A stretch of DNA of 64,000 bases, taken from Geodermatophilus bullaregiensis. Lineage in GTDB: Bacteria > Actinomycetota > Actinomycetes > Mycobacteriales > Geodermatophilaceae. The translations under genes and the position numbers were made by a program. How positions within the stretch are numbered: the stretch's first letter is position 1; each line of letters starts with the position of its first letter. The stretch lies in NCBI RefSeq assembly GCF_016907675.1, contig NZ_JAFBCJ010000001.1, forward strand, positions 372,001-436,000, in the 5' to 3' direction. The notes under the pieces are model-generated. The model did not search any database. It saw nothing but the letters and a program-made list of their open reading frames with translations, and was not told where the DNA came from. Shown here piece after piece: positions 10,955 to 16,529 of this stretch.

Positions 10955-11610
10955 CCGTTCTGTCCTGCCCACCGGCGGTCGCGCTGCTCAGGCGGCTGGT
11001 GCTCCTGGCCCAGGCCGTCTCGGCACCGGCGGTGACCGGGGCCATCGCGCCCAGCGGGCGGGCCCTGACCCGGGCGCTGGGCGCGCCCGTCGCCGAACGG
11101 GCCGGCGCCGACCTGCGCGTCCTGGAGGTCGGCGCCGGCAGCGGCCCGGTCACCCGGGCGTTGCTGGGGCTGCTGACGCCGGGCAGCCAGCTGGACGTGG
11201 TGGAGGCCAACGGTGCGTTCATCCCCGGCCTGACCGACCTGGCTCGCGCAGCCAGCACGCCGACGACCGTCCAGCACGCCCGCATCCAGGACGCGGTCCT
11301 GGACCCCGGTCACGACGTGATCGTCTCGGCGTTGCCGTTCGCCAACTTCGCCCTCGCCGACGTGCAAGCGATCGTCGACCGGTACCGGCAGCACACTGGA
11401 CCCGGTGGGGTCATCACCTGGTTCGGCTACCGCGCCAGCCGCGCCGCCCGAGCCCTCACCGCCGGGCCGGCCGAAGCGGCACGGCACCGCGCCGTCCACG
11501 CGCACCTGGCCGGCTACGGGGGCAGCAGCACCACGGTGTGGGCCAACCTGCCTCCAGCTCGCGCGACCCGGCTGCGCCCCCACGGGACATCGCCTCGCGC
11601 GACGGACTGA
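10951..11610 (+). CDS. class I SAM-dependent methyltransferase (PmtA-like), altered C-terminus
   Basis: A 219-residue protein whose GTG overlaps the preceding stop (GTGA). SAM-binding motif I is LRVLEVGAGSGPVTRALL, followed by the acidic strand LDVVEANGAF and motif IV VIVSALPFANF. The overall layout resembles phospholipid N-methyltransferase-like enzymes. It normally would end shortly after VWANLPPARATRLRP. The last ten residues are encoded by sequence that, in another frame, belongs to a decayed integrase (GLIRSNPAAAV), so the original 3' end seems to have been replaced by a recombination event. Probably still folded. Confidence 0.85.
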   Translation: MTVLSCPPAVALLRRLVLLAQAVSAPAVTGAIAPSGRALTRALGAPVAERAGADLRVLEVGAGSGPVTRALLGLLTPGSQLDVVEANGAFIPGLTDLARAASTPTTVQHARIQDAVLDPGHDVIVSALPFANFALADVQAIVDRYRQHTGPGGVITWFGYRASRAARALTAGPAEAARHRAVHAHLAGYGGSSTTVWANLPPARATRLRPHGTSPRATD

Positions 11611-12277
11611 TCCGCAGCAACCCCGCGGCAGCAGTGAGACGGCCCGGCGTCGACGCAAGGACGCGCCGCACCTGACCGCGGAACAGGCGCATGCGCTCCT
11701 CGAGGCGAGCAGAGGCGACCGGCTGGAGACCTTGTTCCGATTGATGCTCGCCAACGGGCTGCGCCGCGGGGAAGCACTCGCCCTGCACTGGTCCGACGTC
11801 GACCTCAAAGCAGGACTGCTGCGAGTCCGCTGGACCCTCTCCCGGACCTCCCGGGGACTGCAGCTCGACGAACCAAAGACCGACAAGTCCCGCAGGACCG
11901 TGCCCCTCCCCCGCTCAGCCGTCGAGACGCTCCAGGCCTACCGAACCCGGCAACTGGAGGAACAGCGCACGGCCGTCGGAGCCTGCCAGGAGCACGGGCT
12001 GGTTTTCACCACCGAGGTCGGGACACCGCTCGAACCCCGCAACGTCCTACGGCGCTTCGAGGTCCTCGCGGAGCAAGGCGGCCTCCGCGGCGTCACCCCG
12101 CACACCCTTCGGCATTCCGCAGCGAGCTTCCTGCTGGCGGCCGGCACCTACACCAAGGTCGTCCAGGAACACCTGGGCCACTCGTCGTACGCCATCACGG
12201 CGGACATCTACAGCCACGTCGGCCCCGCCCAGCAGCGCGAGGCCGCCGACCGGCTCGACCAAGCGCTCCGCTGGTGA
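11592..12277 (+). pseudogene. tyrosine site-specific integrase, N-terminally truncated and frameshifted
   Basis: The catalytic half of a phage/ICE-type integrase. The segment GLIRSNPAAAV is read in one frame from about 11601. The remainder (LTAEQAHALLEASRGDRLET through DRLDQALRW) is in another frame from about 11650 to 12277. The catalytic residues are visible: Arg in GLRRGEAL, HTLRHS, His in GHSSYA and Tyr in DIYSHV. The N-terminal SAM-like and core-binding domains are missing. It reads toward the 3' end of tRNA-Pro, 103 bases away, the classical position of an island integrase at its attachment site. Not expected to be active. Confidence 0.85.
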
Positions 12278-12361: not shown

Positions 12362-12379
12362 TGACCTGCGGTTCCACTG

Positions 12380-12453
<74 letters not shown>

Positions 12454-12528: not shown

Positions 12529-13404
12529 TCAACCGCCCGCCGGGACCCGGTCCTCGGCCGCCAGCACCTCGCGGAGCTTCCGGGCCACCGCGTCCACGTC
12601 CGCGGGCTGGCCGTACTCCGAGTCGAGGAAGCTGCCGTGGTCGCCGGGGAACACGACCGGCGTCGTCCCCAGCCGCTCGGCGACCGCCTCGCCCCCGCGG
12701 TGGGCCAGCTCCCCGGCGGACCCTTCTCCGACCGCGATCACGATCCGGCTGGACGCCGCCCGCAGTGCGTCGACGTCGTGCTCGTGGTGGGTGCAGGAGA
12801 CGATGTTCTGCGCGAGCAGCACGTCGTCGCGGGAGCCGTCGTCGTCGGCGGGCAGTCCGAACGCCGCGGGGTCCGGGGTCGGCCCGAGGTCCGCGGGCAC
12901 CGGGCCCCGGTGCATCACGAGCCGGATGAACTCGGCCATGCCGGCCCCGAAGCCCGAGCGCTGGTAGGTCTCGCGCACGCGCCGGGAGGCGGCCAGCGCC
13001 GTCTCCCGGTCGGGCACCAGCGCGGCCGCCGGCGGCTCGTGGGCCACCAGCGTGCGCACCTGCTCCGGGTGCCGTGCCACGAGCACCAGCGCGTTCACCG
13101 CTCCCCCGCTGCTGGCGAAGACGTCGACCGGCCCGGCGCCCAGCGCCGTGATCAGCCGGGACAGGTCGTCGGCGTGCTCCTCCGGCGTCGACTCGGCAGC
13201 ACCGTCGGTGCGGCGGCTGCGGTCGGCGCCGCGCGGGTCGTAGGTGACCACCGTGCGGTCGGGGAAGTGCGCGGCCAGCGAGGCGAAGCCCGAGGCGCCC
13301 ATCGGCGAGCCGACGAGCAGCAGCGGCGGCCCGTCACCCGGCCGGACGTCGTAGGTGACGACGGCGCCCGCCGTCTCCAGGGTGTGCGTCCGCGGTGCGG
13401 TCAT
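12529..13404 (-). CDS. alpha/beta hydrolase
   Basis: A 291-residue protein. After the strand GPPLLLVGSPMGASGF comes VVTYDPRGADRS, and the nucleophile motif FASSGGAVNAL. A cap with the HHEHDVDALRAA segment follows, then VIAVGEGSAGELAHRG and the histidine in VVFPGDHGSFL. This is the typical order of the alpha/beta hydrolase fold (PF00561/PF12697). It appears cytoplasmic. The substrate is not predictable. It lies between tRNA-Pro and the M1 peptidase pseudogene and is the first coding sequence on the core side of the tRNA. Confidence 0.85.
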   Translation of the reverse strand: MTAPRTHTLETAGAVVTYDVRPGDGPPLLLVGSPMGASGFASLAAHFPDRTVVTYDPRGADRSRRTDGAAESTPEEHADDLSRLITALGAGPVDVFASSGGAVNALVLVARHPEQVRTLVAHEPPAAALVPDRETALAASRRVRETYQRSGFGAGMAEFIRLVMHRGPVPADLGPTPDPAAFGLPADDDGSRDDVLLAQNIVSCTHHEHDVDALRAASSRIVIAVGEGSAGELAHRGGEAVAERLGTTPVVFPGDHGSFLDSEYGQPADVDAVARKLREVLAAEDRVPAGG

Positions 13405-13531: not shown

Positions 13532-15022
13532 TCAGGGAACCGGCACCGCTGCGGGCTCGGGCAGCCCGGCCGGCCGGCCCGGGGTGAACAGCCAGGCGGT
13601 GAACAGGTCGTCGAGCTGCTGGCCGGACACCCCCTCGGCGAGCGCGATGAACTCCTCGGTGGTGCCCGTCTGACCGGCCTGGGAGGCGGCCCACGCACGC
13701 AGGACCCGGAAGAAGGAGTCGTCGCCCACCTGGTTGCGCAGCGCCTGCAGCGTCATCGCGCCGCGTTGGTAGACCGCCGGGTGGAACAGCTGGTCGGCGG
13801 CCGGGCCCGGGTCCCCGATGGTGACCTCCCAGAAGTCCGCCCCCAGGTCCTCCTCGGGCAGCGAGGCGAGGGAGTCGAAGACCTCCTGCGGGGTGCTGAG
13901 GCCCTCGCGCTCCAGCCACAACCACTCGGCGTAGGTGGCGAGGCCCTCGTTGAGCCAGATGTCCCGCCAGGCGTCGAGCCGGACCTAGTCGCCGTACCAC
14001 TGGTGGGCCAGCTCGTGGACGACGACGCTCTCCGCGGTGACCGCGTCGGTGAAGAAGCTCGACGCGTACACCGGCCGGGTCTGCGTCTCCAGGGCGAACC
14101 CCAGGTCGGGCGCGTCGTCGACGATCGCGCCGGCGGCCGTGAACGGGTACGGCCCGAACCAGCCCGAGGCCGCCTCGATGACCTCCGGCTGCCGGGCGAG
14201 CGCCGCGTCGGCCACCGCACCGGCCGACGGTCCCTCCGTCTCCGGGTCGAGGTCGAGGGTGGCGAGGTCGGGGTCGACGGCGTCCCAGAAGGCGATGCCG
14301 CCGGCCTCGTACTCGCGCAGGTCGAACTCGCCGACCGCCAGCGTGACCAGGTAGGTGGCCATGGGCTCCTCGGCCGACCACGACCACGTCGTCCACCCGT
14401 CCGCGGTCCACGAGCCGGACAGCACCCCGTTGGAGACGCCCTCCAGACCCTCGGGGACGGTCACCGAGACGTCGATCGACGCGGCGTCCCTCGGGTGGTC
14501 GTTGGCGGGGAACCAGGTCGCCGCGCCGTGCGGCTGCCCGGCCACCACGGCGCCGTCGTCGGTGTGGAAGAAGCCCGAGCCGCCCAGCTCGTCCGTCAGC
14601 GTCTGGGGCACCCCGTCGTAGACCACCTCGACGGTGAACCGCCGGCCCTCGCGCAGGGGGTGGGCCGGCGTGACGACCAGCTCCTGGCCCTCCCACGTCC
14701 AGGTCGCCGCGCGCCCGCCCACGGTGACCGACCGGACCTCCAGGCCCTGGAAGTCGAGGTCGAAGCGCGACAGGGCCTGGGTCGCCTGCGCCGTGATGGT
14801 CGCCGTGCCGTCGAGGACGTCGGTGGCCGGGTCGTAGCGCAGGTCCAGCCGGTAGTGGCGGACGTCGTAGCCGCCGTTGCCGTCGAGCGGGTAGTACGGG
14901 TCCCCGATGCCCGGCGCCCCCGGTTGCGGGTCGGCCCGCCCTCCGCCCTCCGCCACGGCGGTGCCGGCGCTCATCGCCACCAGCACCCCTGCCGTCGTCA
15001 CCACTACCAGCCTTCGGCGCAT
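13532..15022 (-). pseudogene. secreted M1-family zinc metallopeptidase interrupted by an amber codon
   Basis: One frame of 497 codons encodes a Sec signal peptide (residues 1-24, ...SAGTAVA-EGG) and an N-terminal beta domain. The gluzincin motif HELAHQW is at residues 336-342 and the third zinc ligand in DIWLNEGLATYAEW. Codon 346, right after HQWYGD where the family normally has Ser, is TAG (plus-strand CTA at 13985-13987). Reading resumes in the same frame without any other defect to 13532. The shortened product (345 residues) lacks the WLNEG glutamate and should be inactive. A single C-to-A change from TCG would explain it. It may be a recent nonsense mutation, a sequencing error, or (less likely) readthrough. 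Confidence 0.9.
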
Positions 15023-15179: not shown

Positions 15180-16529
15180 TCAGCCCCGCTTGCGCTCGCT
15201 CCCCCGGCCCTCGCGGACCTTCACCGAGATGTCGAGCGGCGTCCCGCCGAAGCCCCACCGCTCGCGGAGCTTGCGCTCGAGGAACCGCCGGTAGCCGGCC
15301 TCGAGGAAGCCGGTGGAGAAGACGACGAACCGCGGCGGCCGGACGTCCGCCTGCGTCACGTACTTGATCTTCGGCGCGCGCCCGCCGCGGGCCGGCGGCG
15401 GGGTCTCCATGACCAGCTGGCGGACGTAGGCGTTGAGCTCCGCCGTCGGCACCCGGGTCTCCCAGGAGGCCAGCGCGGCCCGCAGGTGGTCGGCGAGCTT
15501 GCCGACGCCGCGGCCGCTGGTCGCCGAGATGTTCACCCGGCTCGCCCACCTCACCCGGGCGAGGTCGCGCTCGATCTCCCGCTCCAGCTGGGCGTGCCGG
15601 TCCTCGTCGATCGCGTCCCACTTGTTGAACGCGATGACCAGCGCGCGGCCGGCCTCGATCACCTGGGTGATCACCCGCTGGTCCTGCTCGCTGATCACCT
15701 CGTCGGCGGCCAGCAGGACGACGGCGACCTCGGCGGCCTGGATCGCGGCCTCGGTGCGCAGGCTGGCGTAGTACTCCGTGCCGCTGGCGGTGTTCACCTT
15801 GCGGCGCAGGCCCGCGGTGTCGACGAACCGCCACTCCTCGCCGCCGAGGGTGATGATCGAGTCGACCGGGTCGACGGTGGTGCCGGCGACGGAGTCGACG
15901 ACGGAGCGCTCTTCCTTGGCCAGCCGGTTGAGCAGGCTCGACTTGCCCACGTTGGGCCGGCCGACCAGCGCCACCCGGCGCGGGCCGACCTCCTCCGGCT
16001 CCCCGCGCGGCGCCTCGGGAAGCGCGTCCAGGACGAGGTCGAGCAGGTCGCCGGAGCCCCGGCCGTGCAGCGCGCTGACCGGCTGCGGCTCCCCCAGGCC
16101 CAGCGACCACAGCTCGGCGGCGTTGGACTCGCTGCGCTCGTCGTCGACCTTGTTGGCGACGACGATCACCGGCCGGTCGCTGCGGCGCAGGATGCGCGCG
16201 GCGGCCAGGTCGGTGTCGGTGGCCCCGACCTGGCTGTCGACGACCAGCACGATGACGTCGGCCGTGCGCATCGCGTACTCGGCCTGCCGGCTGATCGACG
16301 CGCCCAGGCCCTCGGCCTTGGGGTCCCACCCGCCGGTGTCGGTGACGGTGAACCGCCGGCCGTTCCACAGCGCCTCGTAGGAGATGCGGTCGCGGGTGAC
16401 GCCCGGGACGTCCTGCACCACCGCCGCCCGCCGGCCCAGCACCCGGTTGACCAGCGTCGACTTGCCCACGTTGGGCCGCCCGACGACCGCCACCACCGGC
16501 AGCGGACCGCCGGTGCCCTCCTCGCTCAT
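15180..16529 (-). CDS. der: ribosome biogenesis GTPase Der (EngA)
   Basis: A 449-residue protein with two tandem GTPase domains, each with a GRPNVGKS P-loop (residues 17-24 and 190-197), switch motifs ([13 protein letters not shown] and DTAG) and NKxD motifs (NKVD, NKWD). A C-terminal KH-like domain follows ([17 protein letters not shown]...IKYVTQ). Der is needed for 50S subunit maturation. The start ATG overlaps the stop codon of cmk (ATGA), so the two are translationally coupled. Length and domain order are normal. Confidence 0.97.

Follow-up and report, generated by a model that had tools for sequence, protein, structure and literature searches.

The window, by which we mean the whole stretch of 64,000 nucleotides of Geodermatophilus bullaregiensis DNA that was analysed, carries on its minus strand a gene for an M1-family metallopeptidase that is interrupted by an in-frame TAG and flanked by the genes for a der/engA GTPase and an alpha/beta hydrolase. 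The features of this region are as follows, with the positions of the two motifs taken from an alignment:

12529..13404, minus strand: alpha/beta hydrolase, downstream neighbour of the M1 gene
13532..15022, minus strand: M1-family metallopeptidase gene, broken at codon 346; 497 codons including the terminal TGA, from translation
13532..13921, minus strand: longest downstream restart frame, from a TTG at codon 368, beginning after Glu359
13943..13957, minus strand: WLNEG, codons 356-360, 3' of the TAG
13985..13987, minus strand: in-frame TAG, codon 346, Ser in 12/12 other genus copies
14003..14017, minus strand: HELAH, codons 336-340
15180..16529, minus strand: der/engA GTPase, upstream neighbour of the M1 gene, also a neighbour in the orthologous locus L034

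A phage-type integrase (11405-12277, plus strand) lies beside a tRNA-Pro(GGG) (12379-12453, minus strand), and the two together likely mark an integrated element's border, a short way downstream of the M1 gene.

Translation of the M1 frame from its ATG to its TGA reveals two stops, namely the TAG at codon 346 and the TGA at codon 497. When read with an X at 346, the frame matches both Pfam profiles of the family above the cut-off, Peptidase_M1_N (PF17900; residues 56-225, E 9e-14) and Peptidase_M1 (PF01433; residues 326-477, E 1.3e-24). Its best-scoring solved relative is PDB 6a8z (residues 25-495, phmmer E 7.9e-52), which, along with 6iff and others, we take to be the M1 zinc metalloprotease of Deinococcus radiodurans. 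Going by the roles of these motifs in the M1 family, HELAH furnishes the first two zinc ligands and the catalytic glutamate, and Glu359 within WLNEG is the third ligand; the HEXXH-X18-E spacing of the two motifs places this third ligand past the TAG. Both halves of the HEXXH-X18-E signature are present in the frame but, under the standard code, they are parted by the TAG and do not fall on one polypeptide. A downstream restart that would rescue the active site was considered and rejected: no common start codon occurs between the TAG and Glu359, the first being the TTG at codon 368, and the restart frame beginning there cannot supply the third ligand because its start already follows Glu359. 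These results bear out the earlier note, which had described an M1 metallopeptidase otherwise intact over 497 codons, with a single TAG at codon 346 between HELAH and WLNEG (verified at 13987..13985) and a truncated product deprived of its third zinc ligand. On visual inspection, the N-terminus resembles a secretion signal. Residues 309-313 (14084-14098, minus strand) read FALET, and LALET in 6a8z, at the exopeptidase motif where M1 aminopeptidases usually carry GAMEN; the motif therefore appears to be altered in this M1 subfamily.

The comparison within the genus covered 26 genomes, that of the window (G000) included. A full-length orthologue of the M1 gene is found in 9 of these, again counting the window's, with identities of 63-100%, so the frame can be taken as a real gene; by the same distribution, the gene is accessory in the genus. 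A second M1 group, recovered by search and tree, comprises four more copies at 46-49% identity; in two cases the same genome has a copy of the first group as well. In G. amargosae (L034), the M1 gene is preceded upstream by der and a cmk-like gene, matching the order in the window, and the comparison with this copy is therefore one with a true orthologue; no der or cmk-like neighbours were seen within the flanks of the records L035, L036, L038 and L041. The nearest copy, which is 82% identical and occupies the corresponding place beside der, has TCG at the column of codon 346, a single C-to-A change away from TAG.

The same column is Ser in all 12 other aligned genus copies (TCG in 6, TCC in 2 and AGC in 4), in agreement with the earlier note's statement that the position is normally Ser (TCG), and Ser also appears there in the tblastn alignment of a thirteenth, 5'-truncated copy (L015). 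This last (genome G001, 1450-2115) is a second-group relative whose tblastn match is limited to query residues 241-484; it is seemingly devoid of its 5' half, with a stretch of N farther upstream. A wider set of 80 homologues, which shares at least two records with the genus comparison, was kept among 570 found, and has Ser at the column in 63, Asp in 10 and Leu in 7. Neither Cys nor a stop occurs at this column in the genus copies (0/12) or the wider homologues (0/80), and among the copies compared a TAG at codon 346 was seen in one species only. The possibility of a TAG common to relatives was rejected, the TAG in L012 being the own end of that gene, and the stops within the matches of eight wider loci fall at query positions 479-489, at the C-terminal end and not at codon 346.

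Given that this genus decodes UAG as selenocysteine, readthrough at the M1 TAG needed a serious test. A tRNA-Sec was found in all 26 genomes, and the 26 sequences inspected, one taken per genome, have the anticodon CTA (CUA) without exception; in the window genome it lies at genome 4168979-4169070 and is followed by selA and selB. Formate dehydrogenase (FDH) with an in-frame TAG is likewise present in 26/26 genomes (C1:2962110 in the window genome; L244/L281), and UGSC-like proteins with an in-frame TAG occur in many of them. In the UGSC protein of the window genome, the TAG falls exactly at the U of the UGSC motif (genome position 5112411; L183 12411; L242, C1:5112138-5112662) and is thus a UAG-encoded selenocysteine site. 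Such decoding has already been published for the family Geodermatophilaceae: the passages of PMC5330540 bearing on it report a tRNA-Sec with CUA in three genomes of the family and an AhpC UAG-selenoprotein in Blastococcus saxobsidens, and credit the FDH and UGSC selenoproteins of the family to Mukai et al. 2016 (as cited in PMC5330540). Among the open-licence papers listed for selenocysteine in Geodermatophilus or Geodermatophilaceae, and for M1 aminopeptidase selenoproteins, no title or abstract opening describes an M1 selenoprotein. One genome of the genus (G019) has, in addition to its CUA tRNA-Sec, a second tRNA-Sec with the anticodon TCA on a short contig (C17; L184 1173-1263), with a transposase-like gene seen nearby by eye; this points either to contamination or to a species with two Sec codons.

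For the sequence downstream of the TAG, a count of stem geometry was adopted because free energy failed to separate the groups in this GC-rich genome. Free energy was rejected as a SECIS test, as 77% of 600 sampled TCG sites had a qualifying hairpin whose stability equalled or exceeded that of the weakest among the 48 positives, and shuffle z-scores were weak throughout (M1 -1.25, M1 sister -0.13, FDH -0.39, UGSC -1.48). The count considers loops of 3-7 bases that start 16-23 bases after the codon and have G in their first two positions, and gives the length of the longest stem, free of interruptions, that closes such a loop; having been set after the FDH and UGSC folds were seen, it gauges likeness to those sites and not SECIS function generally. 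The stems have 6-8 pairs at the 28 FDH sites, 6 or 8 at the 20 UGSC sites and 3 at the M1 TAG, and the loop opens with GTC, GTG or GTT at +20 in 47 of the 48 FDH and UGSC sites. Among ordinary TCG controls (1,959 codons from coding-like frames of a sample of ~504 kb of the window genome), a stem of 3 or more pairs is found at 70% and one of 6 or more at 9.5%; stems of 6-8 pairs can arise by chance too, since they are reached by some Ser-coded M1 copies (6 in L005, L014 and L031, and 8 in L012).

Were the CUA tRNA-Sec and SelB to read the M1 TAG, the product would be a full-length peptidase with Sec at 346. The CUA tRNA-Sec is present throughout the genus and selA and selB in the window genome, FDH and UGSC proteins carry an in-frame TAG, and the portion of the M1 gene 3' of the TAG has not decayed; however, the SECIS-like stem is absent, with 3 uninterrupted pairs as opposed to 6-8 in 48/48 FDH and UGSC sites. 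Furthermore, Sec normally trades places with Cys among homologues, whereas the column at hand holds Ser, Asp or Leu and in no case Cys across 80/80 wider homologues, and Ser in 12/12 genus copies, with TAG in no other copy examined. As the solved relative 6a8z has a Gln at the equivalent residue, no chemistry appears to depend on residue 346 and there would be no catalytic need for Sec. We regard Sec insertion at this site as very improbable, and attach as little weight to the idea that M1 was newly captured as a UAG selenoprotein, its Ser codon, one base from UAG, having passed to Sec next to the zinc site through decoding that is weak or needs no SECIS. Amber readthrough of another kind, through near-cognate decoding or a suppressor tRNA that escaped detection, could also yield a useful full-length enzyme and would suit the apparent constraint 3' of the TAG, but the release factor 1 gene prfA is present and TAG is an ordinary terminator in the window genome: the coding-like open frames of the ~504 kb sample (350, some maybe spurious) end with TAG in 54 cases, TGA in 295 and TAA in 1. 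With TAG closing ~15% of these frames, broad suppression would extend many proteins, and no other unexplained TAG was seen within the genes of the sample. A pyrrolysine or other suppressor tRNA was rejected because no CTA anticodon occurs among 65 gene calls, some repeated by overlapping loci, from an ARAGORN run on loci covering all 47 RF00005 tRNA places; a single anomalous call in L133, whose anticodon is unclear, does not coincide with any RF00005 place. Readthrough of this kind, too, is most improbable.

The state of the gene on either side of the TAG bears on the age of the stop and on whether it might be an artefact. The M1 frame has no further premature stop and no frameshift, either 5' or 3' of the TAG. 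Selection was judged by counts of private codon changes, which lean on an assumed outgroup because the order of G000, G002 and G006 is poorly supported in the tree: 3' of the TAG the ratio of replacement to silent changes is 5:7 in G000 and 7:11 in G002, with ~2.2-2.9:1 expected without selection, and 5' of it 23:24 in G000 versus 5:26 in G002 (Fisher p 0.004). The upstream replacement excess in G000 may reflect mild relaxation or a longer G000 branch. These counts suggest that the M1 gene was under constraint until recently, perhaps with some loosening, and the undecayed 3' part fits a very young mutation, and fits just as well an error of sequencing or continued readthrough of the gene. In the event of a base-call or assembly error, the chromosome would have TCG and the gene would be intact and working; the remaining frame is indeed intact and evolving as if under constraint, and one base separates the TAG from the sister's codon. 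On the other side, the assembly is a single contig of 5,200,084 bases with completeness 100 and contamination 0.32, and the loss of a sense codon to a stop is also what a real mutation in an accessory gene would produce. A scan of ~504 kb of the window genome looked for in-frame stops lying between two coding-like stretches, with a minimum of 60 open codons upstream of the stop and 40 downstream. The scan, which is blind to frameshifts and missense errors, returned 7 such stops; by eye, these were three natural gene ends followed by a coding-like frame, two frames that were not gene-like, the UGSC TAG and the M1 TAG. The last is the sole match in the ~504 kb that seemed, by eye, to interrupt a gene without explanation, and stop-making substitution errors are therefore rare at most. 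We consider such an error at codon 346 unlikely, though it merits being kept in view.

In light of these observations we propose, with a probability of about 0.8, that a recent amber nonsense mutation inactivated the gene for a putatively secreted M1 metallopeptidase and left it a pseudogene. A single C-to-A change would have converted TCG, which encodes Ser, to TAG, at which release factor 1 would end translation; the resulting 345-residue fragment would keep HELAH and lose Glu359, and should neither hold zinc properly nor cut peptides. Three elements of this reading are inferred: a genuine mutation in the organism itself, efficient termination at the TAG and an inactive fragment. Since the gene is accessory in the genus, its loss would be tolerable. 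Thus, the M1 TAG most likely represents ordinary recent gene loss, without marks of selenocysteine use. An in-frame TAG in the Geodermatophilaceae can be either a Sec codon or a true stop, and here the two are separable by the downstream stem together with the homologue column. The M1 case by itself amounts to one broken accessory gene, and is useful as a warning about such sites and as an example on which to test them; if the TAG were translated after all, it would illustrate a route by which a Ser codon comes to be used for Sec.

Among known systems, the window's M1 frame resembles the Deinococcus radiodurans M1 protease 6a8z, which has HELAHQWFGD and WLSEG, but the latter is intact and carries a Gln at the column where the window gene has its TAG. 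With the UAG selenoproteins of the Geodermatophilaceae (FDH, UGSC and AhpC), the M1 gene shares an in-frame TAG in a genome that has a CUA tRNA-Sec, selA and selB; unlike them, its TAG is without a SECIS-like stem, falls at a column that is never Cys and was seen in a single species. A parallel is also found in nonsense-mutated bacterial pseudogenes, which, like the M1 gene, have one in-frame stop where relatives conserve a sense codon, are accessory and show no further decay as yet. A premature stop at a position where the orthologues have a sense codon is what marks a nonsense pseudogene, and this is what is seen here; nothing essential sets the M1 gene apart from others of this kind, its host merely happening to decode UAG as Sec elsewhere.
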